A stretch of 32,187 nt of DNA from Bacteroidota bacterium. Lineage in GTDB: Bacteria; Bacteroidota; Rhodothermia; Rhodothermales; Bin80. The stretch covers positions 1-32,187 of the forward strand of contig JAPOTE010000100.1 of NCBI GenBank assembly GCA_026709335.1, read 5' to 3'. Each line of letters starts with the position of its first letter. Positions within the stretch are counted from its first letter, which is position 1. The position numbers were made by a program, and so were the translations under genes. Of this stretch, positions 204 through 32,187 are shown one piece after another. Below the pieces are notes generated by a model. That model did not search any database, was not told where the DNA came from, and was given only the letters and a program-made list of their open reading frames with translations.

Positions 204-2054
204 TCAATTGCCAAGGTAATGGAGTAGGCGCTGTGCAGTCACGTCTCCGGTTAATTTATAGAGATAGATGCCTTTACTGAGTCCTTTTGCCTGCAATTCA
301 GCAGTGTATAAACCAATTTGATGATGGGAATTTGCGAGAGTGCGAATGTGTTGACCAAGCGGATTGAACAATTCAAGAACGACATGTCCTGGTTTGCCAA
401 TTCTGTAATCTATGGTTGTTGAAGTTGTAAAAGGGTTAGGATAATTTCCTAGAAGGTCTGTCTCACCATATTCAGGAAGTTCTTCTGTATCGGTGGGAGA
501 TCTCAATCGAAAATGTAGCCAGTTAACATTCGGCGTACCATTATGAAAATGAAGTTTCATAATTTGGGTTCCCTCTTCCAGTTCAATTCCGTTCTCGGTA
601 ATGATCCGGGCGGTTTGAAAATTAGGCGTTCGGCTAGAGTACAGAATCATGCCAGTTTTATCTACGCCATCAAATTCAAGGGAAAAAGAGATCTGGCTTG
701 CTCGGCTTGCCAATCTCACCTGTAGATCATAAATGCCCCCCTGATCTACGTGTACTGTGTAAGCAACCCATTCCCGTCGGGAGGTTGCCCCAACATGGTA
801 TCCAATCCCATCTGTTGTCGGATATACGTCCACTCCCTCATCAAGCCGAATTCCTCGGCCATCATTTGTGGATGAAAGATCTCGGTAGGCAACCCCTGGC
901 CCGCCCAAGTCAAAATATTCTGCCTCTATTCGTTCACTGATAGGGTGAGGGCGCATTAGATAGGGGGCATTCTGAGCACAGGAATTTCCGACAGTAATCG
1001 ATCTGGTAGCTGAGTAAGTACTCCAGCCACCGTTATCAACAGTTCGGGCACGCACTGAATAACAGCCTTCTGCAACATTTTCAGTAGACCAGCTCCACTG
1101 ATCTAATCCAGATCGAATTGTTTCCATTAAACCATCACCTTGATAGAGTTCTACTCTTAGTATTCGGCCATCGGAGTCAGTTGCGGTACCTGAAAAAGTA
1201 ACTGCTCCTCCTACTTCGACATTGGTTGGTGTTTCAAGCGTTATCTGAGGAGTATCCACATAGCGATAAACGCGTACATAGTCAACTAGCATTTGTTGTG
1301 GGAAGATACTGTTATCAATACCTTGGGCTCCTCCCCATGATCCCCCGATCGCAATATTCAGAATTAAGTGAAAAGCTCTGTCAAATGGCCAGCCTTGCCA
1401 ATTATTGAGGGATTTCGTATAAGTCCAGTAGGAGTTTTCATTTACTGAAAACGTCAATTTGTTTGGAGTCCATTCGAGGGCATAAACGTGTAGTGCACTG
1501 GATACATCTGAAATGATGGTTTTACCGCCTTTTTGTGTGTTGCTGAGGTGATTGAATGAATCCGTATGAATTGTGGCATGAATATGTCCAGGGTTGTGGC
1601 CCACATGCTCCATAATATCAATTTCTCCTGTATCAGGCCATCCCCCGTTCCCATACGAACTGTTTGTAGGAAGCATCCAGATTGCTGGCCAAGTGCCTCT
1701 ACCAGAAGGGAGTTGAGCACGGATTTCTATACGGCCGTACGTCCAATCGCCTTTTGATTTTGAGATCAACCTGGCCGATGTATAGTCACGGCCTCCCCAA
1801 GATTCTTTTCTGGCTTCAATCACAAGATGGTTCCCATCAACTCTCGCATTCTCCTCACGCTTCTCGGTATAATATTGACTTTCAGAATTTCCCCATCCAT
1901 TTCCACCAACGTCATAGGACCAAAGTGTAGAATCAGGAAGGCCTGTATAGTCAAATTCGTCACTCCAGGCCAACTCCCATGATGATTGTGCATACAGGTT
2001 AGTTTTTATGAGAAAACATAAGCAGAATATCAGAGAATAGGCAATACGTATCAT
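204..2054 (-). CDS. Secreted GH16 beta-glucanase (laminarinase-like) with CBM6-like and T9SS sorting domains
   Basis: This is a modular secreted glycoside hydrolase of about 616 residues. The start at 2054 is preferred because MIRIAYSLIFCLCFLIK then reads as a signal peptide ending near YAQ/SS; an in-frame ATG at 2147 would add 31 residues in front of it. The GH16 catalytic domain spans about residues 25-265 and carries the family signature EIDIME (E144, D146, E149 from this start): nucleophile, helper Asp and acid/base. The substrate is therefore probably a beta-1,3- or mixed-linkage glucan. An Ig-like linker with a DSDG motif follows (about 270-357), then a CBM6-like beta-sandwich beginning RIEAEYFDLGGPGVAYRD (about 375-520), and a C-terminal sorting domain beginning LLGNYPNPF (from about 535) that should direct type IX secretion and surface attachment. 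It lies 279 bases downstream of the receptor operon on the same strand. Exact substrate is inference. Confidence 0.9.
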   Translation of the reverse strand: MIRIAYSLIFCLCFLIKTNLYAQSSWELAWSDEFDYTGLPDSTLWSYDVGGNGWGNSESQYYTEKREENARVDGNHLVIEARKESWGGRDYTSARLISKSKGDWTYGRIEIRAQLPSGRGTWPAIWMLPTNSSYGNGGWPDTGEIDIMEHVGHNPGHIHATIHTDSFNHLSNTQKGGKTIISDVSSALHVYALEWTPNKLTFSVNENSYWTYTKSLNNWQGWPFDRAFHLILNIAIGGSWGGAQGIDNSIFPQQMLVDYVRVYRYVDTPQITLETPTNVEVGGAVTFSGTATDSDGRILRVELYQGDGLMETIRSGLDQWSWSTENVAEGCYSVRARTVDNGGWSTYSATRSITVGNSCAQNAPYLMRPHPISERIEAEYFDLGGPGVAYRDLSSTNDGRGIRLDEGVDVYPTTDGIGYHVGATSRREWVAYTVHVDQGGIYDLQVRLASRASQISFSLEFDGVDKTGMILYSSRTPNFQTARIITENGIELEEGTQIMKLHFHNGTPNVNWLHFRLRSPTDTEELPEYGETDLLGNYPNPFTTSTTIDYRIGKPGHVVLELFNPLGQHIRTLANSHHQIGLYTAELQAKGLSKGIYLYKLTGDVTAQRLLHYLGN

Positions 2055-2333
2055 ATGATGAGGTTTGTGATTTGAATTTAAAAAGTGTGAGAACTGTAGC
2101 AATGTTCTGTTAAGAAATTGAATTATGTGTGCGTAGAAAATATTCATTTGAAATTTTGTTCAGCGCCTGCCCGTAAGCAGAATATGCAATCCAAGTTATA
2201 TGGTTTTTATTACATCAACCGCGTCAAGATGCTGGTAATAACTGAACTCTGGTTTTCATATTCGTTGTGCTAGATCTATGTTAGGCGGAAATTACATCCA
2301 CGAGAACTAAAATGAAGGGGATGCTCGAGAAAA

Positions 2334-3638
2334 TCAGTCAAGCATAATTTGGCGAAAGAGAGTAGTATCAATATGAATGGATGCGACTGAACGAAGCGCA
2401 TCCAGCAGGGTGGTATCAGGTCTCAATTGTCGCATAGAGTTGGCTAGATATGTTCTTGTAGAACTCGTGACATCCTCTTGGACAATTTTGTCGTTTTCAA
2501 GGCCCAGATTCATCCCTGTCAATGCAAAAGCTTCGTTGCGAATGGCGCGTCCAATAGATGCGGCCGGATTTGATATTGCCTCGGAAAAAGGAAGTACTGG
2601 GAACCAGAAAAAATAATCTTCGGCAGTGAAGGCTTGGATGGTTCCATTCATCCGAAAGGTTGCAAGCGGAGTTTCGGGGATCAAGGGTAGAGGGGAGGTA
2701 TCGGACGAATGATCTAAGGCAAGAGAAGTGTTAGTCAGACGTTTGAGTGCTACGCTAAGTGACCGAACTCCTTCGGGGATGACCTGAACATCTCGACCTT
2801 CCATGAATGTGCGTACAAAACGATCTCCCTCCAATCGCCTTCTACGGATACGGAGCAGGCCTGAAATTCCAGATTTTCTGGTTTGATACTCCGATTCCGT
2901 GATGATTGGAGATTCGATGCGATCTTCAACTTTGATGATATGCCATCCTTGCCTGCTCCGCACGGGATCCGAATAACTTCCTGTCGACAGTGCAAAGGCT
3001 ACGTCGGCAAAGGCATCATCAACCTGAAAATATCGAATTTCACCAAGCCATCCTGCTGTTGAATCGAACGTTGCAGTTTGGAATGAACGCTGTGCCTCGT
3101 CAAGGAATGAGTGCCCGGATTTTAATCGCTCATGAGCTTTCCGAACTTCGGACTCGGCGCGATAAAAGAGATGACGGACGACAATCGGTTGTTTGTATCG
3201 CGCGAAAGCTTGGCGAATCTCTACATCATTTAGTGGAGGTAGTTTTTCAACAAATTCAAGTTCGTAATAGCGTCCACCTATGGCTTGTCTAAGAGCCAGT
3301 TCTCTATGCCTAATGAGTGAAGAGTCCATGTCCAGGTTGCGACGTAGAGCTTCCTCATACCAGAGATGTTCTTCAATTAACAGATTAAGCTGGGTATAAC
3401 GGGCTTTCGGAGTATCATTTTGACCGGTCTGAATCAGCGTTTGTACGTAAGAACGTTCAAATGCTCCAACCGTAATCGTATACCCGTTGACGGAAGCCAG
3501 TTTTTGATCCTGCTCGTTCAGATACCCCGAGCACCCGATGAACACGAACAGGACTAGGCAGGTGCCCCAAGATTTAGAAATAGACCCGAAAATCGACCAC
3601 CTGCGTTTGTCCAAGAAGTTCAAATGGTGTGTACGCAT
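2334..3638 (-). CDS. Parvulin-type peptidyl-prolyl isomerase lipoprotein (PpiC/SurA-like)
   Basis: This encodes a probable periplasmic foldase of about 434 residues. A hydrophobic stretch ending in the lipobox FIGC (Cys36) predicts a lipoprotein. A helical N-domain is followed by a parvulin PPIase domain at about residues 151-241, recognised from VVRHLFYRAE, the GWLGEI loop and the closing SRQGWHIIKVEDR, which is the usual F/W-H-[IV]-[IV]-K-[VL] end of the fold. The C-terminal 190 residues are unassigned. The start is uncertain: ATG 3638 has a weak GGGA upstream and leaves a 65-base overlap with the PorV-like gene, while ATG 3689 would overlap by 116 bases. Coming last in an operon with a TonB receptor and a PorV-like barrel, it may help fold those outer-membrane proteins (inference). 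Confidence 0.85.
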   Translation of the reverse strand: MRTHHLNFLDKRRWSIFGSISKSWGTCLVLFVFIGCSGYLNEQDQKLASVNGYTITVGAFERSYVQTLIQTGQNDTPKARYTQLNLLIEEHLWYEEALRRNLDMDSSLIRHRELALRQAIGGRYYELEFVEKLPPLNDVEIRQAFARYKQPIVVRHLFYRAESEVRKAHERLKSGHSFLDEAQRSFQTATFDSTAGWLGEIRYFQVDDAFADVAFALSTGSYSDPVRSRQGWHIIKVEDRIESPIITESEYQTRKSGISGLLRIRRRRLEGDRFVRTFMEGRDVQVIPEGVRSLSVALKRLTNTSLALDHSSDTSPLPLIPETPLATFRMNGTIQAFTAEDYFFWFPVLPFSEAISNPAASIGRAIRNEAFALTGMNLGLENDKIVQEDVTSSTRTYLANSMRQLRPDTTLLDALRSVASIHIDTTLFRQIMLD

Positions 3639-4629
3639 AATCAAATCCCAGCCGGACGCCGAAAGCACGCACATCGATCCCTGTTCCAAATGTGAGATGA
3701 CTGTCTACATTGTCTATGAAAAGATCCTTGTATCCTCCACGAAGGTCAAAATTGAAAGTCCTGTTGTGAATTCGTAATTGAGCTCCTGCATCACTGTTAA
3801 GGCTGTTGTCGTTACTCTGTTGGATGTCAGCCAGAGCGGAAAGTTCAATCATACCTGCCTGTATAATAGGCATGGCGAGGCCAAACTTGAATGAAAGTGG
3901 CAGGTCCCATGAATCCATTTCAATGCGGGCAGGGATGTTGGGATTGTTTCCAGTGGTGGTCTCGTCAATATCCACGAAGACAATGCTGTTAACGCCAGTC
4001 ATTTGCATTTTGCCACCAAAATTCTGGATCGATGCAGCCAGAATCAATCCACGCAGGTATTCGGATTTAAGAATAAATCCAAAGTCAAATCCAATGGTGC
4101 TGGCAGTCATATCCCTAATCTGTTGACGCACATATTTGGCAGTGCCCCCAAAATAAAATGACTCAGTCAGAGGTTGTGCATAGCTGAGGCCCAGGCTGAA
4201 ATCACTCGCACGGAAGGTTTCGCCCGTTCCCTCGGGGAAAGCAACTGTACGAACAAGCATGTCACCGTAGTTTACTGAGGCCACGCTAAGGCCTAAAACA
4301 CGGTCACCAAAAACAGGAACTACAACAGCGGCCGCGTTATATTCAATATCTGCGAACCAGCGGGAATGCGATAAAAATATCCCACCAGCTGAATTATTTC
4401 CGTAAGAGCGGGCGGCACCAGCCGGGTTCCAAAAAAGTGCATCTGCACCAGTTGCAACAGCGGTATATGCATGACCCAGTGCTTGCCCGCGTGCGCCGGT
4501 CCCGATTGTCAGGAAGCTAGCCGCTGTTGTTCCTGCGCGGCTTTGTGCAAACGCAATCTCGGGGCCTGCATTGATCATCATCAACAGCAGAACGAACAGA
4601 TAGATTGTTGTACGCACTGACTGCCTCAT
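3574..4629 (-). CDS. PorV/PorQ-family outer-membrane beta-barrel protein
   Basis: This 351-residue protein has a signal peptide (cleavage near AFA/QS) followed by the PorV/PorQ/UPF0164 hallmark: FLTIGTGARGQALGHAYTA, then ADALFWNPAG. The rest alternates in beta-strand fashion, and it ends in phenylalanine (FRVYF), as outer-membrane barrels do. In type IX secretion PorV accepts cargo from the translocon and hands it to the attachment complex; PorQ-like paralogues are less well understood. Its start overlaps the stop of the 1127-residue secreted protein by 4 bases, which implies translational coupling, so this copy may be dedicated to that cargo rather than being the general secretion shuttle (inference). 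FadL-like transport is a less likely alternative. Confidence 0.85.
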   Translation of the reverse strand: MRQSVRTTIYLFVLLLMMINAGPEIAFAQSRAGTTAASFLTIGTGARGQALGHAYTAVATGADALFWNPAGAARSYGNNSAGGIFLSHSRWFADIEYNAAAVVVPVFGDRVLGLSVASVNYGDMLVRTVAFPEGTGETFRASDFSLGLSYAQPLTESFYFGGTAKYVRQQIRDMTASTIGFDFGFILKSEYLRGLILAASIQNFGGKMQMTGVNSIVFVDIDETTTGNNPNIPARIEMDSWDLPLSFKFGLAMPIIQAGMIELSALADIQQSNDNSLNSDAGAQLRIHNRTFNFDLRGGYKDLFIDNVDSHLTFGTGIDVRAFGVRLGFDYAYTPFELLGQTQVVDFRVYF

Positions 4630-7600
4630 TTAACAAGGGCAAATTTGTCCACATGTTCGCCAATTCCGGGAGCATCAACATGAAATACATACACTCCGAA
4701 TGCAATATCCTGCTGTTCTTCCGTACGGAGATCCCACCATACGGATCCATCGCTGGAGGCACTATCATGATACAGTGTACGAATTAATTCCCCTCGAAGG
4801 TTGAAGATGCGAATGGTGCATAGAGGAGGAAGGTGGATAAACTGTACTCGCCGTTCGCCTCGTCCTTCAATTTGACTTCTTGGCTCAAATGAGGAGGTGC
4901 CAACATAGGGGTTTGGAACAACTGCAATTCGATCAAGCTCATTGCGCGCTTTATTCACATCAATCTGCGAAGAGCGAAGAGTAAACTGGAAGAAATCGCC
5001 GGTTGCAAAAGGTTTCTTGCTAGAGATATGAAAAGAATTGCCAGCAGAAGGAGCAACTGAACCGCCACCGTCAGCAGAACTGAATTGGATCCGATAACGA
5101 AATCGCCAGGGGCCGCGTCCAGTTGGGCGCTCAGCAATGATTGCATGATCCCCGGCGTCAAAAGCACCACTGCCATTCACATCTTGCATTAAGAGCTCGG
5201 CAGGAGTATTTTTTGTTTTATTGACGGTGAAGACAGGGACCGGATCTCGTAAATATCCGAAGAATCGTGGTGGGCGATATAGAGAATCACTCGGGGAAAC
5301 CCAGATCAACTGATAGTCATCGGGAGAAGCACGAAATGCAGAGGTTGTATCCCGTTCTACCGTCGCAATCCAGTTTGTAGAGTGGCCATCCAGCGTTCGC
5401 GGGTCCAGGTCATAGATTTCATTTTCTGTCCCCTCATTGGCGAGATATCCTGTATTTAATGGATCTAGTTCGCAACCTGCGGGGGCTGGGCAATCAACAT
5501 TGGTGATGTCAATGACAAACCCATCTGAGGGGGGAGTGGAATCAATAATTGGGGACGACTGAATCAGCGTTTCGCCGGAAGCAATGTTGGTGATCTCGTA
5601 TGCTCTTGTCCGATAGAGATCAGAAACAGCAGAGATCGGTTCGCTAAAGAAGGATATATGGTAGATCGCATCAAAATCTGCGAGTGTTTCCTGGATCAAT
5701 CTCACACTGATTGACCCGGAGCCAATCCCGCTGGTCACGCGGCTCAAATCTTCATTTGCACCGCCCTCAATATAGCCTACGGGGACGGATCTTGGTGTCA
5801 CGGCAGCTGCATTTTGAGAAAATCCAGTCAAACGCCCTGCCTGGTTCACGCTAATATTGAAGGAGTTTTCTTGTGGATCAATGGGTTCTTTGGTCGGGTT
5901 GTCTGGATCCCGGAATCCCCGATCATAGGCTACCAGTGCGTAATAATATGTGATGCCGTTGGTCACGTCTTCATCAATATAGTAGAACTGGAGTCCGGTG
6001 TTATCTCCGAGGGAGTAAACTGCTTCACCCTCCAGTACGGTAACGGGGCCTTGAATATCATTGGCGAGATCCCACTGGGCTATGGGTTTGAAGAAGGTCG
6101 CTGTCCCGTCAAGGTCGGTAATGGTGCGGGCATCAAAGAGCAGGGGGTCCGTCCCTTTGTAGAGTTTGAATCCTTCAAAGTCAAATTCCTGTGTAAAACG
6201 GTCAAAACTTCTAACAGCAACAGTATCCCAACTAAGAACTACGCGTTCATCACCGGCAACCGCAGTAAGCTTAGGAAGAAACGGGGGTTGAGCGAAGTTG
6301 TAATCAGCATTGAATATACTTTGTGCAGTACGGCGGTTTTTGAAAAAATCACGCTCATCTTCACCAAATATCCAGGCAGTAGAGAAAAAGTCAGTTCCCT
6401 GAGGTTCAAGGCCAATCGGTCCAGAGGAAAACAGAATAAACGGTTCCAGATCGGCTTTGAAGGCATCCGGTTTGGTTCCAAGAGGGAATTGGGCATTATT
6501 GATAATCCTGTCCCACATCCAGGAGTCATCTCGCAGGTTATCACCACTTTCATAGAATGGTCGGGTCTGTAAATCAAAACCGGTTAACCCAACCTGGTCG
6601 GATTCATCAACATCGAGTTCATCAAAGTTAGGCTCTCCAAGTGTGGGAATTCCATCGGCCTCTCCGTCATCAGGGCCCGGGTAGCCGAGGTCGAATGGTC
6701 CTTGGCCATCTCTTCCCACATCATTGTTAAGTGCTTCCCCTGGATCCAGGGTTCCATTTTCATTTTCATCGGAAAAGCCGACCCAATCCAAGTTTTCATC
6801 TCCTGTCCACCAACGTCCGGCTGTATAGGCAGGGCGGGATTCAATAGGACCATAATAGGCTTCAAAATCGGCAAGATTGTACATGGAAGCAGCAGTGCTG
6901 AGAATTTGCTGCTGTCCCTGAATAAGCGTGCCCGCGCCGTTGAACCTGGATTCATCTGTCATTCCGTCTTCATCGTTGTCCAATCCATCCATTGCTCTGG
7001 CTGGGCTTTCAAGAAATGCAAACCCGGTATATCCAAGTGGATAGTTTCCACCGGTGGGGCGAGTCCCAATCCCATCCTGATCCCAACCGTAGGCCACATC
7101 CTGCTGCGGGTTAAATGCAGCGTTTTCATCTCCCTCCTCATTGCCCAGGCCATAATCCATAATTTGTCCCAGGTACAAATCAGAATGAGTTTTATTCGTC
7201 ACATTTGTAATCCGATAAAGAATGAACATCAGATCTTCTGCAAGCACATTGGCCCACTGGAAGAGGCGAACTTGTGTCTGAAGTCCCATTCCACCAATTG
7301 TAGAATCTTGGCTACTTGCGTAAAACACTCCGTATTCACTGTTTGGTCGTCGGGTTTCTGGATCAATGGCATATTCCTGATCTGTAAAATCATCCATTAC
7401 ATAGAAGCTTTCCAGATCTGCGTTAAAGACACCTCTGCCAAAAAAGCCATTCCAGTTGCCGGACCATCCAGGATCATCGGGATTATTCAATCGATCGGGC
7501 CAGAATTGGGGCCAGGAAGTCGGATCGTCACTGAGTGCAGGGGTAGGGGTTCTCTGTCCTGTGATGGGGTCCAATCGGTTCACATTCATGAACCCTGGAA

Positions 7601-8009
7601 GAGGTGTCCATCCCCATAATGATCCATCCGGGCTTAAACGTTTCCCGAAGTCCCGATAGGTAAGGATTACGGGATTCAGGGTGGTATCCTCGCTGGCCCC
7701 CGGGAAAAATCTTGACCATTTCAGGCGTTCTCCCGGGACCTGCCCAGCTACCATAATGCCCACTCCATCAATATGGCGCCCTCCGATGCCTCGAGGCCAG
7801 ATGCCCCATGGAAGATCATTCCAGCGGGCCAGTTCGCCGTGATTACGGAAGTTGGTTTCGATAAGGTTCCCATCCATAATCCCGCGCGCAATCAGATCCT
7901 CGTCTCCTCGAAGGTCAGAGGAAATATTCTGTCCGTACAGAGTATTTGGCAACATCGTCAAGATGCCCAGACCTATCAGGAGGAAACGGCTGTATACACT
8001 CTGCATCAA
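4626..8009 (-). CDS. Large secreted FnIII protein with acidic Ca-binding-like motifs and T9SS-type C-terminus
   Basis: This 1127-residue protein starts with a signal peptide (cleavage near LYG/QN). The N-terminal 500 residues are rich in W, G, P and D and are not a fold I can name. They carry several acidic loops resembling EF-hand/dockerin or thrombospondin-3 calcium sites, such as DGLDNDEDGMTDE (about 341-353) and DENENGTLDPGE (about 414-425); another, DVNGSGAFDAGD, lies near the C-terminal third. A fibronectin-III-like module sits at about 590-720 (VVLSWDTVAV, FEGFKLYKG, YYYALVAYDRGF). The last 100 residues (VVPNPYVGTSSFE to the end) look like a type IX sorting domain. It lies between a TonB receptor and a PorV-like gene with 4-base overlaps on both sides. 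I infer a surface-exposed partner of the receptor, in the place SusD would occupy; its ligand is unknown. Confidence 0.75.
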   Translation of the reverse strand: MMQSVYSRFLLIGLGILTMLPNTLYGQNISSDLRGDEDLIARGIMDGNLIETNFRNHGELARWNDLPWGIWPRGIGGRHIDGVGIMVAGQVPGERLKWSRFFPGASEDTTLNPVILTYRDFGKRLSPDGSLWGWTPLPGFMNVNRLDPITGQRTPTPALSDDPTSWPQFWPDRLNNPDDPGWSGNWNGFFGRGVFNADLESFYVMDDFTDQEYAIDPETRRPNSEYGVFYASSQDSTIGGMGLQTQVRLFQWANVLAEDLMFILYRITNVTNKTHSDLYLGQIMDYGLGNEEGDENAAFNPQQDVAYGWDQDGIGTRPTGGNYPLGYTGFAFLESPARAMDGLDNDEDGMTDESRFNGAGTLIQGQQQILSTAASMYNLADFEAYYGPIESRPAYTAGRWWTGDENLDWVGFSDENENGTLDPGEALNNDVGRDGQGPFDLGYPGPDDGEADGIPTLGEPNFDELDVDESDQVGLTGFDLQTRPFYESGDNLRDDSWMWDRIINNAQFPLGTKPDAFKADLEPFILFSSGPIGLEPQGTDFFSTAWIFGEDERDFFKNRRTAQSIFNADYNFAQPPFLPKLTAVAGDERVVLSWDTVAVRSFDRFTQEFDFEGFKLYKGTDPLLFDARTITDLDGTATFFKPIAQWDLANDIQGPVTVLEGEAVYSLGDNTGLQFYYIDEDVTNGITYYYALVAYDRGFRDPDNPTKEPIDPQENSFNISVNQAGRLTGFSQNAAAVTPRSVPVGYIEGGANEDLSRVTSGIGSGSISVRLIQETLADFDAIYHISFFSEPISAVSDLYRTRAYEITNIASGETLIQSSPIIDSTPPSDGFVIDITNVDCPAPAGCELDPLNTGYLANEGTENEIYDLDPRTLDGHSTNWIATVERDTTSAFRASPDDYQLIWVSPSDSLYRPPRFFGYLRDPVPVFTVNKTKNTPAELLMQDVNGSGAFDAGDHAIIAERPTGRGPWRFRYRIQFSSADGGGSVAPSAGNSFHISSKKPFATGDFFQFTLRSSQIDVNKARNELDRIAVVPNPYVGTSSFEPRSQIEGRGERRVQFIHLPPLCTIRIFNLRGELIRTLYHDSASSDGSVWWDLRTEEQQDIAFGVYVFHVDAPGIGEHVDKFALVK

Positions 8010-10774
8010 AAGCGGTAGTTGAGTCCGATGCTTATTTTACGGGGTGCTCCAAAGTTTTCTTGACGATAGAAAAATTCATCCAGGCTGTTGATTCCACCCA
8101 CTTGGGCACCCGTTCGCCGGAAGAGCTCCAGTGTCACAGATTCGTCGGCCCGTCCAGTGTCTTCATATACACCGACTTCCTGTATCGTATCAAAGAGATT
8201 TTGTGCTTGAAAGAATAGCTGTATGTTGGGGCGTAGTCCGGGAATCCGGTAATACATACGAATATCCGTGCCGAAGATAAGGGGTTTGGTGGCATTATTC
8301 TTTTTCCCTGATCGGATGAATTCTCGGACAGTCGTATACGGTGTGCCACTCTGTATGCGATTAATCAGAGTAACAGACAAGCCTGAGACTGGCTGTAAAG
8401 TAATCGTATTGTTGAGGACATGCCTCCTATCCCAATCCAGTCGTACTAGGGAAAGAATTTCATCTAGGCCTGCCTGTTGACGACCAAAGGCTTCTCCCGG
8501 ACTTGAAGATGTTCCTTCTGCAAATTGAAGAGTGTAGTCCAAAGTCCAGCTCAGTGGGCCGCCGGGACGCTGGAACAGTGAAAATGTAAGCCCTCGAATC
8601 GTGCCATAGTCTCGATTGATCCACCGAATTACAAAGTCGCCTTGTGGGGTTCTGGAGATTTCTTGCCCTGTCAGATTTCGTACATCCCTCGAAAAGACTG
8701 TGATTTCCATTCCAATGCGATCGGTGAATCCCTGTTGCAGTCCAATTTCGAAGGAAAGTGTACGTTCAGGATTGATTCCCGGGTTCCCGAACGAGTTGGA
8801 GAGTGAAGCTGGATTGACTTCATACTCGGGATTCGTATATAGCAATCCAAATGAAGGAATCTGGAAGAACAGGCCTGCCGAAAAACGCATGACGCCTGTA
8901 TCAGAAATGGGAAAAGCCACGCCCAAGCGTGGACTGAGTTGCATGTCAATTTTTGCCGGTTCCCGATTGGAGCGAGTGCTACCGGGGTTATCGAGATCGG
9001 GGATTTCTTCAAGTTCGCCTTGCCCCCAGACAATTGGAGTCAGGTAATCTGGATCAAAGTAGTCAAAGCGCAGTCCCGCATTCACAATCAATCCCGTAAA
9101 CTCCATCTTATCCTGGATGTATGCTGATAGCTCTACCGGCTTTGCCTGGAGAAGATTGTCGGAGAATTGATCGGGAGACGGTTGTGGCAGGTTAAGTGTT
9201 CGGAAGGAGCGTTCAATCCCAAAATCTCGGTTGTCCAGAGAATGCAAGCGGGCCTGGGCACCAATTTTCACCAAGTGAACACGGTTAAGTTGATGAGAAT
9301 AATCAGCAACAATCGTGTGGGTCGCTGTGAGTTGATCACTTTGAAACAAATCATTCCCTCCAACTGCAAATGCATTCGCTCCCTGGAGGAAGCCAAAGTC
9401 ACTACTCACATGTCTGAGGTCAAAGGGGGACTCGTAGAGATATACGTCTGTCTTGTCATGCAGATAGCTGTATGACAGGTTTGCAAAAGCATTACTACCA
9501 ATCGTGTATCGTATTCCAAGTATATGCGTCTGATTAAAAAAATGTACCGTATTGATTCCGTCGGGAGTGTATTTGCGAAAATGATTATACGGTTGAAATG
9601 TACCTGATTGAAGAAAGACGTTATAGTCAAGATTCAGTCGAGGCGTCACTGAGTAGCCAAGTGAGGCATTCACGGAGATTCGATCAGTTCTGTTACGGGG
9701 GACAAAGTTGCCATTTCCCGAAGAAGCAATGATCCAGGCACTTGGTGGGAGGCCAGTATTCAGGTTCTGTGATGAATCTGATGGAGCGAACAGGTTTCGT
9801 CCGATGAAATGTGAATTATCTTGCAGATATCGAACTGTTGTCTGAAATCCAAAACGGTCACGAATCAGTGGACCTCCCAAGGAAGCCTGTAAGTCAACCA
9901 GGTTGGGGAGACTGGCTGCTTCAGCAAAGGATACGGTGTCAGTAGAAAAATCCGAGACAGAAAGTGATGTGCCGGGATCCACCGATCGATTGACAAACTC
10001 AAGATCCCGATTACTTGCAATCGCTCCGGCATATGTCAGCAGGGAGCCACTCCACTCATCTGGCACATCCTTGGTAACTATATTGACGACTCCACTGGTT
10101 GCCTGGCCATACTCCGCATTGAATACCCCACTGATCACTTCCAGGCTTTGAACCATATTTTGTTCAATATCGAAGGCAGCTTCTTTGCTGAAAGCATTGG
10201 TAATCGGGACACCGTTGACCAGATAAGTGACTTCGCCAATTCGGCCTCCTCGGAAATGACCATCAACCACGCCTGCTTGCAGGTTGATGGCATCCTGTAC
10301 ATTGGTAACAGGCAATACTTCAAGTTGCTCAGCATCAATTACAGAAGTCGTCGTAGTGCGGTCCATTTCCACGATAGGGCGTTCAGCTATCACCACGATC
10401 TCCTCGCCTTGGATCGTCTCTTCACGCAGTTCAAAGTTAACAGTAGATGTTTGATCCTGAACCACGCGAACATTTTGCGTGGTCACGGTTGCAAAACCGA
10501 TGAAAGAAGCACGAACATCATAAATCCCGGGTGGAATATTCAAGATGTGATAAAACCCATCCTCGTCGGTCACGCCACCAATAGATGTTCCTGCAACGAC
10601 CACGTTGACTCCCGGTAGTCCAAAATCCGTACCTGCTTCCACAACTCTGCCAGCAACCTTGCCGGTTGGGCCACCGATTGGATGGGCAGATAGAACTTCT
10701 ACCCACCCTATACAAAGTATGATGAGGATTACAAGTAATCCAAAATTCCTGCGCTTTGACGAATTCTGTATTAT
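8006..10774 (-). CDS. TonB-dependent receptor with N-terminal regulatory-like domain; start codon non-canonical or lost
   Basis: This is an outer-membrane active transporter of about 922 residues if read from 10774. In order: a signal peptide (SSKRRNFGLLVILIILCIG, cleavage near LSA/HP), a carboxypeptidase-regulatory-like domain (GKVAGRVVEAG to IGFATVTTQNV), a plug domain (INLQAGVV, VTYLVNGVPI, VFNAEYGQATSGVVNIVTKD) and a 22-strand-type barrel ending in NYRF. The first ATG/GTG/TTG in this frame is a GTG at 10642, which would remove the signal peptide and the first strand of the regulatory domain. Between it and the upstream in-frame stop at 10814 there is no standard start. Two ATA codons at 10774-10769 overlap the stop of the preceding gene and are the best-placed candidates. 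No SusD gene is adjacent. It presumably imports the oligosaccharides released by the GH16 enzyme. Confidence 0.9.
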   Translation of the reverse strand: MIQNSSKRRNFGLLVILIILCIGWVEVLSAHPIGGPTGKVAGRVVEAGTDFGLPGVNVVVAGTSIGGVTDEDGFYHILNIPPGIYDVRASFIGFATVTTQNVRVVQDQTSTVNFELREETIQGEEIVVIAERPIVEMDRTTTTSVIDAEQLEVLPVTNVQDAINLQAGVVDGHFRGGRIGEVTYLVNGVPITNAFSKEAAFDIEQNMVQSLEVISGVFNAEYGQATSGVVNIVTKDVPDEWSGSLLTYAGAIASNRDLEFVNRSVDPGTSLSVSDFSTDTVSFAEAASLPNLVDLQASLGGPLIRDRFGFQTTVRYLQDNSHFIGRNLFAPSDSSQNLNTGLPPSAWIIASSGNGNFVPRNRTDRISVNASLGYSVTPRLNLDYNVFLQSGTFQPYNHFRKYTPDGINTVHFFNQTHILGIRYTIGSNAFANLSYSYLHDKTDVYLYESPFDLRHVSSDFGFLQGANAFAVGGNDLFQSDQLTATHTIVADYSHQLNRVHLVKIGAQARLHSLDNRDFGIERSFRTLNLPQPSPDQFSDNLLQAKPVELSAYIQDKMEFTGLIVNAGLRFDYFDPDYLTPIVWGQGELEEIPDLDNPGSTRSNREPAKIDMQLSPRLGVAFPISDTGVMRFSAGLFFQIPSFGLLYTNPEYEVNPASLSNSFGNPGINPERTLSFEIGLQQGFTDRIGMEITVFSRDVRNLTGQEISRTPQGDFVIRWINRDYGTIRGLTFSLFQRPGGPLSWTLDYTLQFAEGTSSSPGEAFGRQQAGLDEILSLVRLDWDRRHVLNNTITLQPVSGLSVTLINRIQSGTPYTTVREFIRSGKKNNATKPLIFGTDIRMYYRIPGLRPNIQLFFQAQNLFDTIQEVGVYEDTGRADESVTLELFRRTGAQVGGINSLDEFFYRQENFGAPRKISIGLNYRF

Positions 10775-13341
10775 TTGACTAAGAGCATGGTTCGGGTCAT
10801 GAGCACTGACGATTCAGCTTCAAGTCTATACAGGTACACACCCGATGCCAATCCAGAGGCATCAAACTGAACGGTATGTGTACCCGCCGTATGGGGTTTT
10901 TGATTCAAGAGGGTTGTAACAGTTCGTCCCATTGAATCAAAGACACGCAATGTAATAACTTCAGAAGCAGGGAGTGCGAATTCAATGACGGTGGTTGGGT
11001 TGAAGGGATTTGGATAATTCTGTTCCAGCGTGATTTCCTTGGGAAGTTCTTCACCATCTATGCTTGTTTGAGTGACATCTGTCACGGTTACCAGAACGGT
11101 CTGGGTCAGGCCGTCATATGCGCTATCACTGCTGGTTGCCGTATGTGTAAGCGTTACCTCGTCATCGTCACCATCTCCATCAATCGCTGCCATCACTACA
11201 ACTCCCTGTGCAGTATTCCAGTTATCCATCGTGAACGTTAGTCCCGAGAAGGCCGTACTCGTATCTCCATCGTTATCCAGCGTGAGATCCGTCCCATCCT
11301 GCCCCGTAATAGCTATCATTACATCTGCGGATGGCTTTGAGTTCAATTTGATATAATAGGTCTGGCTATCAGCCTCGGCAACGGATAGATCAGATATCTG
11401 TGAACCATCCGCCATCGCAGAAAGTCCGATTCCAGGCATCGCCATCATTTCCTGTGCATCCAGGCCGACGAGTGCCACAGCGGGCCATTGTGCCGGTGTA
11501 TTCCACCATTGTCCACCAGCATTTGGCTTGATGGACCACTGAATCTGGGCGTCACGGTTTCCACCATCTCCATCATTCAGGACAAAGTTGAAAGGAAAAT
11601 AATCAATTTCATCGCCAGTGGGTAAAGGAGTGATTGCGTCCATCATTTCATCATTTTGAATCTGATCCATGGGAATCACGGCAAGCATTTTATAACCAAT
11701 CGCTTGGTTGTCGGCATTCATAAGTTGATCGTAAATTGCCCCTGCCCCTTGAGGCACTGCTTCTATGCTCCAGCCTACGAATATATATCCTTCCGTACCC
11801 GCCTTCGAGCCATCTCCCAGTCCACCAAGGCGGAACTGATAGTCAGCAAACTCTCCACGCTCCATATTTTGATGAGGAGAGCCAGTAAAAATTCCTCCAC
11901 CTGCTACGTCTTGTACATCATAATTTCCCCAGCCAAACTCAATACTATCATGCTGCCATCCATCAGCAGGGTTACTACCTGATGCTGGTAACGAAATTTG
12001 ATCATCCGTGACTTCTACATATAAATAGAGCTCCATAGGCTCCGAACTGTAGCCAGCCCATAGTTTACCGCTTAAGTCTTCGTCGCTATCCGGCAACCCA
12101 GCATCTGCCTGCTTGAAGTGTGCCATGTTGAGTTCAAAAGGCGTGTAGTTTTCAGGGAATCCGTTTCCTATATTTTCAAATGAATCGTCAAACAGTAGAT
12201 TAGATAAATGTTCTACTTGAGTTTCACTGAGTTCCGGGATGTGAGACTGTAGAGGAAGGTTTTCATTTGCGACGCTGGCCATGCTCATGGAAATATCCTC
12301 GTTCTCAACACCAGAGCTACTGATCGTGGTAACAGCGTAGTTCAGAGTAAGGGGAGCTAGGCTCGAGTGAGGAATTTCAATCTGGTGACCTATCGAAGTA
12401 TCATCGCTATCCAAAGTTGCTAATAGCGCTACACCTGCATCTGAAATATTCGTAAACTCTTCAAGGCTATAGTATACCTTATATCCACCTGCATTAGCCA
12501 CAGTCGCCCAAGAAATCGTGTTGCTGTCGGCTGTTGCTGTTGCCGATACGCCCATCGCTGGATCAGCTGCAGTGTTTTGATCAGAGAGATCCAGTCCCTC
12601 CGCCCCGATGTAGAAATCATCTACATAGATCGGACCCCCGCCTTGGTTGTTATCAAATTGAATTCCTACGTTCTGAACATTGGTCCACTCAAATTCTTTC
12701 CATAGATCAGGGTTGTGTGTAGTATTCGGGCCTTTTCGATCATCGATGCCTACTCCGAAGCCTCCGCTGGACCATGCACCAGCATACACCCAGAGGCTAT
12801 CCAGTCCGTCAAGTTCTCCGGCAGCTTTGGCATTTTCCAATTCAGTGTAGGTCGGAGGGGGGAACGGCACAGAGATTTTATGCCACTGACCATCCCGCAT
12901 ACTGTCGGGGATCTGCCAGACTAAACGGAAGGGGAGGTCCGCAGACCCATCCATTTCACCGCTTCCATCAGTTTTATCTTCAAACATAAAATGGAGTCGG
13001 CCCTTTCCGGCATTTTCAGGATCAACCCAGATTCTGGCATGCAGGACATCCCCGTCCATTCGATTTTGTGTCATATCCACTCCCATATCGGGGTTCTCTG
13101 AAAAACTGAACGTATAGAAGTCAAAATTTCCCATGTATGTATACTCCAATACCTTGTTTGAAGGATCAGTAGGATCATCAACAACACCTATTCTGGTGTC
13201 ATATTCTGGGATATCCGTGTTGATACCATTTACAAAAAATATAAAATCATCCCCGAAGGGTGGACCGGCTTGTCCGTTCACTTGTGTTACTCCTGCAAGC
13301 AGCAACATGAGTGAAAGAAAAGGAGTAAGTATGTGTTTCAT
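10771..13341 (-). CDS. Secreted multidomain protein with CBM9-like and Calx-beta-like regions and T9SS sorting domain
   Basis: This is the first gene of the operon, about 856 residues from the ATG at 13341, which begins the signal peptide MKHILTPFLSLMLLLAGVT; an ATG-equivalent 8 codons upstream is less likely. The N-terminal 260 residues look like a carbohydrate-binding beta-sandwich (IYVDDFYIGAEG near its end). A FnIII-like segment follows (about 270-365). Then comes a region of about 200 residues resembling CBM9-type sugar-binding domains of secreted enzymes (LYLYVEVTDDQI, DSIEFGWGNYD). Next is a Calx-beta-like repeat (VAEADSQTYYIKLNSKPSAD, DGDGDDDEVTLTHTATS), then a sorting domain starting LEQNYPNPFNPTTVIEF. 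No catalytic residues are recognised, so it is probably a surface glycan-binding protein feeding the downstream receptor. Domain names here are judgement by eye. Confidence 0.75.
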   Translation of the reverse strand: MKHILTPFLSLMLLLAGVTQVNGQAGPPFGDDFIFFVNGINTDIPEYDTRIGVVDDPTDPSNKVLEYTYMGNFDFYTFSFSENPDMGVDMTQNRMDGDVLHARIWVDPENAGKGRLHFMFEDKTDGSGEMDGSADLPFRLVWQIPDSMRDGQWHKISVPFPPPTYTELENAKAAGELDGLDSLWVYAGAWSSGGFGVGIDDRKGPNTTHNPDLWKEFEWTNVQNVGIQFDNNQGGGPIYVDDFYIGAEGLDLSDQNTAADPAMGVSATATADSNTISWATVANAGGYKVYYSLEEFTNISDAGVALLATLDSDDTSIGHQIEIPHSSLAPLTLNYAVTTISSSGVENEDISMSMASVANENLPLQSHIPELSETQVEHLSNLLFDDSFENIGNGFPENYTPFELNMAHFKQADAGLPDSDEDLSGKLWAGYSSEPMELYLYVEVTDDQISLPASGSNPADGWQHDSIEFGWGNYDVQDVAGGGIFTGSPHQNMERGEFADYQFRLGGLGDGSKAGTEGYIFVGWSIEAVPQGAGAIYDQLMNADNQAIGYKMLAVIPMDQIQNDEMMDAITPLPTGDEIDYFPFNFVLNDGDGGNRDAQIQWSIKPNAGGQWWNTPAQWPAVALVGLDAQEMMAMPGIGLSAMADGSQISDLSVAEADSQTYYIKLNSKPSADVMIAITGQDGTDLTLDNDGDTSTAFSGLTFTMDNWNTAQGVVVMAAIDGDGDDDEVTLTHTATSSDSAYDGLTQTVLVTVTDVTQTSIDGEELPKEITLEQNYPNPFNPTTVIEFALPASEVITLRVFDSMGRTVTTLLNQKPHTAGTHTVQFDASGLASGVYLYRLEAESSVLMTRTMLLVK

Positions 13342-13377
13342 GAATTTATAAGTCTGGTGACACAAAATTAGAATCGA

Positions 13378-13392: not shown

Positions 13393-13848
13393 AGTTAGGA
13401 GAATACAAATCTAAGCCTACAAGTAACCTCACGATCCGGGGGGCACACAAAAGTACCTTCAAAAGCAATACAATTTGAATCTGGATTATCGGTTTGTAAG
13501 CAATAAGCCTGAAGTATACAAAAAAATCTCAAGAAAAGGTTTTCATAAACTATTTGAATCAACCCAATCTCTTCTATTGTATGAGGTATGAATAGTCATG
13601 GTCCGCAAGCCTGAATATCATCGAGCTTTTAGCGCGTGGGAATTCAGGTCAAGAATAACTGGGGCGAATTAACGATCAAAGTGGGGTAGCATCAAACCGA
13701 TACACGAGAAGATCTCGGCAGAATATGAATGGATATCCTCCCATCCAGATGGATTTGGGGATATGGGGCTTAATCGAGCAAACCAAGGCGACCGAGGAAA
13801 TGGCAACAATCAATACCGTTCCGATCTATACAATCGTCATATGATGCG
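13393..13848. other. Intergenic stretch upstream of the receptor operon
   Basis: This gap of about 460 bases should hold the operon promoter. Minus-strand matches to the Bacteroidota -7 pattern TAnnTTTG occur at 13407-13414 and around 13445, but neither has a convincing -33 TTG at the right spacing. A 39-codon plus-strand frame ending at 13844 has no support. No RNA gene or repeat was recognised beyond the AAGCCTGA half-sites. Confidence 0.4.
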
Positions 13849-14280
13849 TCACTTACAATGCTTTTCCCGCAGCGAATGATATTGTGTCAGACGCCAACTC
13901 CAACTGAAGACATTCTCTTCGTACCAATCAAAGCCTATGCTAAGCTCCTCTCTCGAATTAAGCAAATGCAACCACTCAACTCGTTGATCTTCACTACGTG
14001 GGTATAGGTAAATATTCTCTCTTACACCCGCAGTATCTGCTACAGAAACGATTTGTCCATCTGTTGGGCCCACAGACATACGGATTGGAATGCCCTTTTC
14101 ACTGCAATAGCCGTTGTCTTCTTTACAGGGCATGTGTACTGCGAGTGAGTCATAAGTTTCTAAAGGAGGAAACAAAAAATAAGGCATGGGCGGTGTCTCC
14201 TCTCCACAACGAACGAATAAAACACTATGCGCCAAGGATGAAGATTCATTCACGGGTGTACTGTTAACCGGAATGTTCAC
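13849..14280 (-). CDS. Hypothetical protein, 143 residues, GTG start overlapping an upstream small frame
   Basis: This 143-residue frame starts with GTG at 14280, whose bases overlap the stop of the 41-codon frame upstream as GTGA. There is no signal peptide. The middle contains SVLFVRCGEET, then several aromatic and acidic segments (ENIYLYPRSEDQRVEWLHLL, SIGFDWYEENVF). The pattern of a strand ending VRC, followed 70 residues later by a Y/F-L-x-P segment and an amphipathic helix, is loosely like the VasI/'LxLRC' beta-sandwich family; that is a weak guess. The N-terminus reads like the middle of a protein, so this could be the 3' part of a frameshifted gene. It is downstream of, and on the same strand as, the TPR lipoprotein gene. 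Confidence 0.45.
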   Translation of the reverse strand: MNIPVNSTPVNESSSLAHSVLFVRCGEETPPMPYFLFPPLETYDSLAVHMPCKEDNGYCSEKGIPIRMSVGPTDGQIVSVADTAGVRENIYLYPRSEDQRVEWLHLLNSREELSIGFDWYEENVFSWSWRLTQYHSLREKHCK

Positions 14281-29469: not shown

Positions 29470-29661
29470 CTACTCTCGCAAGGATCCCTGCTTTAGCTGC
29501 AACTTACGAGCTTCCTCGTTTTCCACCTCACGACATACTTTTGCTGCAGCAATTTTCACTGCGGTTTCCTGATCTACTCCCAGATTGATCAACCGTTTCG
29601 CGTCACGCTCAATGCGTCCTGTCATATCCAGGAATTTTGGATCTTGTTTGATGCTGGACAT
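29470..29661 (-). CDS. Small hypothetical protein, 63 residues
   Basis: This short, highly charged and helical protein contains QDPKFLDMTGRIERDAKRLI, then GVDQETAVKIAAAKVCREVE. The segment GVDQETAVKIAAAKV looks like a small helix-turn-helix or UBA-like unit, but no family is recognised. It begins 80 bases after the NTPase gene stop and is on the same strand, so it might belong to the same operon. A 59-codon frame runs opposite to most of it (29409-29588, plus strand), so the strand choice is not certain. Confidence 0.5.
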   Translation of the reverse strand: MSSIKQDPKFLDMTGRIERDAKRLINLGVDQETAVKIAAAKVCREVENEEARKLQLKQGSLRE

Positions 29662-29741: not shown

Positions 29742-31991
29742 TCAAGAACTTGGCACGTTCGAAATGAAATGTTTGAACGTATTTCCTGATTTTTCCACAA
29801 GTTCATCTATCTCAGATAATGGTATTACTAAGCGAAATCGATTACCAGTAGGAACAATTAATTTTATTCTCTGAAGCTCTGGCAAGATGGTGCTAAAAAA
29901 ATAGTTGGCTTGTTTACCGATTCTATGACGTGCAGCATTTTTATCTACCGCCGTTGACCGGGCGAACATTCGAATAAAATTCAGCGCTATTTTCATATCC
30001 CTGTCCATTGTGACGGGATATGAACTTTCACGGATTATTTTCTGCTGTGATTTGAGTTTGAATCCGTTATTGATGAGTACCGCTCTTACTTGATCGGGAG
30101 TAAAGAATTTTTGATATTCCTTATCTGAATCGTTTTCGATAGTTACTGAGTCGAAGGAGCAATCCTCAAAAATTGTTCCATTCAGATTTTTTTTGCCATT
30201 CAGTGATAATCCCACAAAGCGACAGTTCAAAAAGGTGCAATTTTGAATTGATTCAGAAAATTCGGTGGGATTGAAAAGAGAATCCAATACTTTCAGGTTT
30301 TTTAATTTTCGTTGTTTTAAGGCATTTGAGGGAAAAATTACGCCTTTGATCAAATGACTATCATTTGTACGTTCTACTAATTCCAGCATCAATGCACCAC
30401 AATTTTCCCGAACGTAGGAAACATCTGCCTGGCCTCGTGTTAACTGATGCAGGTTTTTAATTATCTCCTTTGGTGACAGCGTAGATGTTTTTGATTTGGT
30501 AAGATAGCGGGCAGTTTCTTTAATCACTGGATCGGGTAGTTGTCTGGCATCAAGGATTAGCTTGGCATTTGAATCATCCCTTGAATTCAAGGCACGTGCC
30601 AAGGCCTGTCCCAAATAAAATGCTTGAAAATCTTCATGATCAAATCGAATCCGCCTAGCAGAACCTGCGGAATGATCAAGGTGCAGAAGTGAATGATCAT
30701 TGATACGATGGTTGATTTGTCTCAGAATGTTTGGGATCTTATTATTTTCCTCGGAGAAGATCTGAATGACAAGTCGGACGATATCCGTACCAATCGATTC
30801 CACTCCGTTAATCCACATTTCGAAGGCTATGAGTGAGAGCAATTCATGATGTTCATCTTTTGTAAGCAGGGGTTTTCCTGTGCCTGAGCTATCGATCCAC
30901 TTTAATGTGACTTCTCGGTCAACAATACTCTCAACAAAGTCGAAAAAATAATCCGTAGGCGACTCCCCTAATCGTCTTAAAAATTGATCAAGGTCATTTT
31001 CCTCTTCGGCTACATCAAGGAGCCTCCGAACAAGGACTGCTCTGGTAAGCACCGGATGCTTATTATTTAGTCTTCCTGCCACTTTGTGATATAATTTTTC
31101 GGGTGATGAGATATTTCGTTTCTCGGCATATCTGAGAAATACTTCCTTACTCCAGCGATCCAGTTCAAATTGGTAAATTTCCACATCACGGTGAGAGCGA
31201 ACAGGATCCAGCAATTTTGCTTGGAATTTCAGAGAAGAGTCAAAATATGCTTTTCGAGCGGCAACAAGAAGTGTTCCATGAGAAGACAGTTGATTTATCA
31301 AGTCACCAATTGCCGAAATAGCTTCACCTGATGTAGTTTCAGCAAGCATTTCTTCGTAGCCATCAAATGCGGGAATAATGACTCCCATTTTCACGAGTTC
31401 AAGAAATGAATCGTAGTATAGAAACGGGAATCGAAATTTGTTGGAAAGCGATGCAATGACAGCATCATCCAAACGTAAAAATGGAGCCCCTCCCAAGGGA
31501 ATTGGGAGAATCAGTGATTGAACTCGTTTTTCCTTGAACGCTTTTGCTTGATCAACAGATATTTTTCCAATCAGTGAGGTTTTTCCTTCACCTGCGTTGG
31601 ATGTCAAAAAATATATTGCAGTGGTGCCAACTGGAGGCTTGCTCAGTTGGCATAGAAGCTCCTGTTGTGCATTACGATATTCTTGCTCAGTTTGGCTTTT
31701 CCACTTCACAATTTTGCCGTTTGGAGATACGTAATGTTCGGGAGGATCAACAGAGCTGATTATTCGATCTGCAAGCCGATCTAATTTTGCGAGATGCAGA
31801 AAAATCCATTTTTTCGCACTCCATTTAGCACCATCCTGTTCAACCTGAATACCATCAGTGGTTTGATTTATTTTTACTTCAATCTCTATTCCCCGAATTC
31901 CCAGAAGAAGGGTTCCATCACTATCCCATGCCATCTCTGTTTCCTCATCTGCAAAAGTAGTGACAATACGTTTGAAATTATCAAATTGCAT
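29742..31991 (-). CDS. NACHT/STAND-like P-loop NTPase with pentapeptide-like patch
   Basis: This protein is about 749 residues from ATG 31991. A GTG at 32138 would add 49 residues, but that stretch overlaps the NYN-protein end in another frame, and ATG 31991 sits 17 bases after that stop. Residues 1-90 are a small alpha/beta N-domain of unknown type. The NTPase has a Walker A SNAGEGKT (131-138; the first Gly is replaced by Ser), a Walker B VIIPAFDGYEE (204-214) whose DGYEE resembles the NACHT 'DG-aromatic-(D/E)E', and sensor-like TLLVAARKAY (240-249). A long helical region follows, then pentapeptide-like units around 580-610 (NCTFLNCRF, GTIFEDCSF) and a possible winged-helix end (about 665-735). 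STAND NTPases act as signal-sensing switches, many in antiphage immunity; that role here is inferred. Confidence 0.75.
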   Translation of the reverse strand: MQFDNFKRIVTTFADEETEMAWDSDGTLLLGIRGIEIEVKINQTTDGIQVEQDGAKWSAKKWIFLHLAKLDRLADRIISSVDPPEHYVSPNGKIVKWKSQTEQEYRNAQQELLCQLSKPPVGTTAIYFLTSNAGEGKTSLIGKISVDQAKAFKEKRVQSLILPIPLGGAPFLRLDDAVIASLSNKFRFPFLYYDSFLELVKMGVIIPAFDGYEEMLAETTSGEAISAIGDLINQLSSHGTLLVAARKAYFDSSLKFQAKLLDPVRSHRDVEIYQFELDRWSKEVFLRYAEKRNISSPEKLYHKVAGRLNNKHPVLTRAVLVRRLLDVAEEENDLDQFLRRLGESPTDYFFDFVESIVDREVTLKWIDSSGTGKPLLTKDEHHELLSLIAFEMWINGVESIGTDIVRLVIQIFSEENNKIPNILRQINHRINDHSLLHLDHSAGSARRIRFDHEDFQAFYLGQALARALNSRDDSNAKLILDARQLPDPVIKETARYLTKSKTSTLSPKEIIKNLHQLTRGQADVSYVRENCGALMLELVERTNDSHLIKGVIFPSNALKQRKLKNLKVLDSLFNPTEFSESIQNCTFLNCRFVGLSLNGKKNLNGTIFEDCSFDSVTIENDSDKEYQKFFTPDQVRAVLINNGFKLKSQQKIIRESSYPVTMDRDMKIALNFIRMFARSTAVDKNAARHRIGKQANYFFSTILPELQRIKLIVPTGNRFRLVIPLSEIDELVEKSGNTFKHFISNVPSS

Positions 31992-32008
31992 CAGTTGAGA
32001 TTCTATGC

Positions 32009-32187
32009 TTAAAGTGTCATAAGCGTGTAATTTTGTGTGGAAAGTTGTTTGTATGGACTCTCTCGTCGATTTGAGGATTTTGGAAGTATATGCGTAATCA
32101 TGGCATTTTGCAACAAAGCATATCGGATACCTGGCCACATATCATCATCACCAGACACTAATACCAGATGCTCTTTGTGATGAATTG
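32009..32187 (-). CDS. NYN-domain (PIN-like nuclease) protein, C-terminal part (cut by window edge)
   Basis: The last 59 codons of a minus-strand frame enter from the window end and stop at TAA 32009-32011. The visible residues include HLVLVSGDDDMWPGIRYALL, then ITHILP and SPYKQLS. A hydrophobic strand followed by SGDxD and then a P-x-[IV] helix is the acidic core of NYN-domain (LabA/DUF88-like) metal-dependent ribonucleases; the D-x-D pattern supplies metal-binding residues. The frame is shorter than 60 codons inside the window. It is followed 17 bases later by the NTPase start, so the two are almost certainly co-transcribed. Confidence 0.65.
   Translation of the reverse strand, partial: IHHKEHLVLVSGDDDMWPGIRYALLQNAMITHILPKSSNRRESPYKQLSTQNYTLMTL

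Follow-up and report, generated by a model that had tools for sequence, protein, structure and literature searches.

The 32,187-base contig analyzed here in its entirety (the window; part of a 2.8 Mb draft genome) carries at its far end two genes on the minus strand, and these raise the question of whether a NYN-type nuclease and a NACHT-type NTPase form a single unit and whether that unit serves in defense against phages. A sequence-only reading had recognized the C terminus of a NYN protein with an SGDDD motif, followed 17 bases later on the shared strand by the NTPase gene, and had named the two a candidate immune system. The open reading frames, their coordinates, and the spacing were all confirmed. 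The codons of the NYN fragment span positions 32185-32009, and the stop codon is followed by a short spacer and by the ATG of the NTPase gene at 31991. The features of the locus are as follows.

32009..32187, minus strand: 3' end (58 codons and the stop) of the NYN-domain nuclease gene, the remainder lying off the contig
32141..32155, minus strand: SGDDD motif of the NYN protein, holding both family-invariant aspartates (D188 and D190 of A1), which are predicted active-site residues
31992..32008: spacer of 17 bases from the NYN stop to the NTPase ATG
29742..31991, minus strand: NACHT-type STAND NTPase of 749 residues (from sequence, alignment, and fold model)
31746..31991, minus strand: conserved N-terminal alpha/beta domain of the NTPase, residues 1-82, with no recognized effector enzyme (from alignment and model)
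31578..31601, minus strand: Walker A motif SNAGEGKT (from sequence and family alignment)
31350..31364, minus strand: Walker B motif DGYEE (from sequence and family alignment)
30618..30644, minus strand: winged-helix-domain motif FDHEDFQAF with an invariant histidine (from family alignment)
30102..30365, minus strand: pentapeptide-like beta-helix, residues about 543-630, a candidate sensor part (from profiles, PDB matches, and model)
29760..30002, minus strand: C-terminal alpha-beta-alpha-beta-beta domain, possibly a winged helix (from predicted secondary structure)

A 798-residue reading frame that opens at a GTG (32138) was rejected as a spurious N-terminal read-through overlapping the end of the NYN gene, with the relatives starting at the equivalent of the ATG. 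The N-terminal piece of the NYN protein had no match anywhere else in the same assembly, and the start of this gene has therefore been lost in an assembly gap. The 63-residue ORF at 29470-29661, previously suggested as a third component, is present in the window but had no homologue in 38 relatives, and no small gene resembling it was found beside the pair among the neighborhood ORFs listed; it is an apparent orphan among the relatives and may not be a gene, and its suggested role as a third component is not supported. Its match to HamB1 (E 9e-4) covers 40 residues and was taken as chance.

The Walker motifs of the NTPase, described earlier as an altered Walker A and a Walker B, are conserved in the family, for which the consensus is TSxAGEGK[TS] in the P-loop and PAFDG[YF]E[ED] in Walker B. 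The presence of a standard P-loop (GEAGSGKT) in the divergent homologue at locus L043 indicates that the missing first glycine of Walker A is a clade trait, and the consensus P-loop is probably a derived form in which the catalytic lysine and the threonine or serine are kept. No NACHT match at E < 1 was obtained for the window NTPase in Pfam, and the L043 homologue scored 35.0 bits against the NACHT profile (cut-off, 26.7 bits). Sub-threshold matches to nSTAND_NTPase5 and nSTAND3 (PF25199 and PF20720; E 2e-4) were found around the P-loop, but this region alone matches, below the curated cut-offs. The model of the NTPase (pLDDT 81.7) gave a Foldseek match at E 4e-11, and its residues 60-570 adopt the NBD-HD-WHD fold of NLRs, with Z scores of 15.6 for NLRC4, 15.2 for NOD2, and 15 for NLRP3. 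The L043 profile match and the NLR folds agree with each other and with the NACHT/STAND homology proposed from the letters.

The FDH.DF motif, which we take to be the winged-helix-domain histidine motif of NACHT/NLR proteins, is followed by a helical part, the short pentapeptide-like beta-helix, and the C-terminal domain. The pentapeptide-like patch noticed earlier was borne out by profile matches in the NTPases of relatives (E 5e-5 to 3e-7, below the Pfam cut-offs) and by matches of the coils to pentapeptide proteins in the PDB (E 2e-5). Matches of the NTPase to HalA are confined to these coils and were attributed to repeat similarity, not kinship; those to catalase/peroxidase (E 0.008-0.04) were regarded as chance. 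As for the possible winged helix at the end of the protein, the suggestion fits the predicted secondary structure but found no match of the domain among PDB sequences. The nucleotide-binding domain is the better conserved part, with a mean pairwise identity of 0.65 against 0.34-0.38 for the C-terminal regions, a drop of the kind expected of a sensor. No enzymatic domain was recognized by profiles in residues 1-120, and the NTPase itself was the sole enzymatic domain that profiles recognized in the whole chain. We propose that residues 1-82 may form a docking region for the NYN protein.

The NYN fragment of the window is by itself too short for scoring with PF01936, yet it aligns with the family and shares 74% identity with the corresponding segment of a complete 233-residue NYN protein in a congener. 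Full-length NYN proteins in related genomes have about 240 residues and a four-cysteine insert. Their alignment has the kept motifs LIDYDN, RLYGGW, EQK.VD, and SGDDD/SSDTD.WPG; D188, D190, W192, P193, and G194 are invariant, D6, D8, and D164 are nearly invariant, and the fragment holds only D188 and D190 of the conserved acidic residues. Four further nearly invariant residues, C122, C128, C142, and C147, lie within the insert, which splits the domain and is predicted to bind zinc, a guess for a region modeled at pLDDT under 50. The PF01936 profile exceeded its curated cut-off in the L013 protein (27.0 versus 24.2 bits), and other members score below that value. In the fold comparison the confident part of the model matched the NYN domain of MARF1 (6fdl; Z 12.1, 2.6 Å over 134 residues) and VPA0982 (2qip; Z 10.3), with unrelated structures at Z 7.0 or less; Foldseek alone gave nothing significant with the NYN model, and MARF1 emerged on VIA re-ranking. 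The profile match and the two folds agree on the NYN homology that had been claimed, and the family is best described as a predicted NYN domain with a PIN-like fold and putative RNase activity. The LabA/VPA0982 and MARF1 nucleases resemble it in fold and in acidic active-site residues, but the present NYN protein differs in its mid-domain four-cysteine insert and in its strict NACHT partner.

That partnership was examined from both genes. A whole-genome search of 59 genomes, comprising that of the window and those of its relatives, detected the NTPase in 8, all of one family. A scan limited to a single genome for each species returned 17 NTPase loci, one in a Rhodothermaceae MAG and 16 in Beta- or Gammaproteobacteria. 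Carriers include Burkholderia latens, Polaromonas sp. JS666, Thauera phenylacetica, Achromobacter aloeverae, Ramlibacter, Dyella, and Rhodanobacter. At all 17 scan loci a NYN-like ORF (233-283 codons, counted from the longest possible start) lies directly upstream on the same strand with a gap of 6-21 bases; among relatives whose NYN gene is unbroken the distance ranges from −11 to about 23 bases. A search with the NYN profile only gave 2 matches in 349 Burkholderiales and 6 in 345 genomes of the window's phylum, and the three new loci from the NYN side (L041, L042, and L043) each have the NTPase directly downstream. The two genes are thus adjacent and on one strand in 29/29 loci with a readable upstream region, a count that includes the relatives and five viral-collection contigs, leaves out L049, L050, and L053 (cut by contig ends), and corresponds to about 27 independent records, three loci (L020, L021, and L026) sharing an identical Nitrosomonas NYN sequence. 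This conservation excludes chance as the source of the pair, and the adjacency of homologues, which had been put forward as a check, holds at every assessable locus. The identity matrices of the two proteins are correlated (r 0.98), as shared ancestry alone would also make them. The module is rare and patchy: it was found in 8 of 245 genomes of the window's class, and the sole carrier among 369 sampled Gammaproteobacteria was the genome taken as the center. Searches of annotated phages and plasmids by tblastn and of E. coli genomes by blastn gave no match to the pair.

The neighborhoods of the pair connect it to defense. Defense genes were found in 5 of 23 neighborhoods, a minimum rather than a measure of enrichment, as the scan covered only hand-picked, promising-looking ORFs without a background rate. 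The pair adjoins type I restriction genes and PDC-S06 at L014, a type I restriction enzyme and Orf5/HEC-06 at L020, and HsdS, AriA/OLD-like, and HsdR at L043; at L044, DruE lies directly upstream on the same strand, and at L048 a DrmD-like helicase and a type IIG enzyme are about 7 kb away. The L044 locus belongs to a close relative (genome G006) whose NTPase is about 70% identical to that of the window and whose pair is located elsewhere than the prfA site described below. Within L044 (469-8264), a 959-residue ORF without a PADLOC match is followed by the 1650-residue DruE-like gene; the two are possibly a Druantia variant.

Five copies of the pair (L052-L056) came from a viral collection and were read as prophage cargo. 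At L054 the pair is flanked on one side by genes for tail sheath, head closure, tape measure, and a DNA invertase and on the other by those for tail-fiber assembly and endolysin; L053 and L055 adjoin or are near tail genes, and L056 is near an integrase. P2-like prophages carry anti-phage genes at hotspots (PMC9122126), to which the 3 kb cargo of L054 between phage structural genes may be comparable; its own position is between the tail-sheath/invertase and tail-fiber-assembly genes. In two congeners (G001 and G005) the pair forms a clean insertion of ~3 kb upstream of prfA, and on the other side of the insertion lies a gene called aroF-like from its sequence and not from a profile; in seven other congeners these genes are separated by 81-105 nt without the pair. 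The module is mobile. In the genome of the window (L062, contig C107) the 1.5 kb upstream of prfA contain a lipoprotein-like ORF in place of the aroF-like gene, the normal upstream neighbor of prfA in the genus, which suggests a rearrangement at the same prfA site where the two congeners carry the module.

The defense-gene neighbors, the prophage carriage, and the clean insertion site, together with the constant pairing, support the immune role that the sequence-only reading had proposed. A role outside defense, in which the two would be accessory genes for RNA processing or regulation that spread by transfer, would suit the window, where the neighbors of the pair are ordinary genes, and several other loci where the same is true. 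NYN/LabA proteins occur in non-defense roles, and NYN enzymes also work in ordinary RNA processing. Such a role accords poorly, however, with the rare and patchy spread, with the positions in prophages and defense islands, and with the NLR-like fold, and we consider it very improbable.

Several copies of the module are disrupted. In congener G009 a second copy (L048, contig C94) has an open NTPase frame and a NYN gene broken by in-frame stops, with remnants at 13585-13935 on the minus strand. The prophage NYN gene of L054 (7286-7998) is split into two overlapping frames beside an open NTPase gene, by mutation or sequencing error. At L047, in a genome of the same family (G012), the NYN gene is intact and a frame shift at about 11700 interrupts the NTPase after the pentapeptide region and before the C-terminal domain. 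The NYN frame is likewise open and the NTPase broken at L028, a locus that contains ambiguous bases.

The main rival to an immune module is a toxin-antitoxin-like arrangement, in which the NYN protein would be a constitutively harmful RNase held inactive by the NTPase and freed on stress or loss of the element, with phage defense as a secondary effect. Two adjacent genes with the nuclease first, found on mobile elements and prophages, have this organization, and the broken NYN genes beside open NTPase genes at L048 and L054 look as if the NTPase alone were harmless. The NTPase, however, has a full NLR-like sensor-switch build and is far larger than a usual antitoxin, L047 and L028 present the reverse case of an open NYN gene with an NTPase that is broken or of poor sequence, and the plasmid collection held no match. 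We regard this arrangement as unlikely.

A further alternative makes the NTPase both sensor and effector, for example by action of its C-terminal domain on nucleic acid, and has the NYN protein process or remove a trigger RNA and so set the threshold. The winged-helix-like secondary structure of that domain would allow this, and clade 14 bNACHT proteins, which have no discernible N-terminal effector domain, defend without a recognized one (PMC12169576). The alternative is nonetheless rather improbable in our estimation, given that no enzymatic domain other than the NTPase itself was recognized, that the pairing with NYN is strict, and that the NYN catalytic residues are kept.

We consider it probable that the pair is a mobile two-gene anti-phage module, namely a split bNACHT with a separate NYN ribonuclease that acts in trans. 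A split bNACHT is the simplest reading because the effector position of the NTPase holds no recognized enzyme and the adjacent gene always encodes a nuclease. From the domain identities, strict pairing, mobility, and defense and prophage context established above, a working scheme can be proposed. A phage component or an infection-induced change would be sensed through the C-terminal part of the NTPase, which would exchange nucleotide and oligomerize; its N-terminal domain would recruit or unleash the NYN protein in trans, and the latter would cleave RNA and halt phage growth, the cell probably being sacrificed in the process. We give about even chances to the more specific version, in which a separately encoded NYN ribonuclease, equipped with a zinc-binding insert and directed at RNA rather than DNA, is activated in trans by an NLR-like NACHT switch. 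Such an immune system would link, in bacteria, the counterparts of two antiviral modules of eukaryotes, NLR sensors and NYN/PIN RNases.

The earlier statement that no named system was known with this two-gene layout agrees with searches of PADLOC, NCBIfam, and the literature. In PADLOC-DB 2.0.0 the NTPase had no match at E ≤ 1 and the NYN protein no significant system model (best E 0.003), its matches being to the 'NYN' and 'HEC-09' models at only E 0.003-0.008; no NCBIfam system model fits either protein. The pair was not described in the literature on NYN with NACHT, STAND, or defense, a search with subscription papers and preprints outside its scope, so an earlier name is possible. In the Avs antiviral STAND systems the effector is fused in one protein. 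These and DS-8 (NACHT and metallophosphatase; PMC13092281) are similar to the present pair in coupling a STAND or NACHT switch to an effector, but the effector of DS-8 is fused in one protein and is a different enzyme. More generally, STAND proteins have sensor, NACHT switch, and effector in a single chain (PMC12169576). The closest likeness in arrangement is to bNACHT25/32 (PMC12169576), which share the central NACHT NTPase, the C-terminal sensor position, and a proposed nuclease output; they carry a PD-(D/E)XK DNase as an N-terminal fusion, whereas the nuclease here is a NYN protein with a gene to itself and the N terminus of the NTPase is non-enzymatic by profiles, in a comparison made with bNACHT by description. 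The NACHT switch and the NYN fold are already known, but their strict two-gene combination and the four-cysteine form of NYN appear to be undescribed. The pair is probably an unnamed anti-phage system that keeps nuclease and sensor as two proteins instead of a single fusion.

If this is true, a NYN ribonuclease joins the effectors already known for NLR-like proteins of bacteria, and an NLR-like sensor works via a separately encoded nuclease, so that trans activation would lend itself to reconstitution with two purified proteins. Cultivable bacteria such as Polaromonas sp. JS666, Thauera phenylacetica, and Ramlibacter montanisoli carry intact copies.

Elsewhere in the window, positions 207-13365 encode a glucanase-like protein and a second protein, both with type IX secretion tails, a PorV/PorQ-family protein, and a TonB-dependent receptor; this region looks like a secretion and polysaccharide-use locus.
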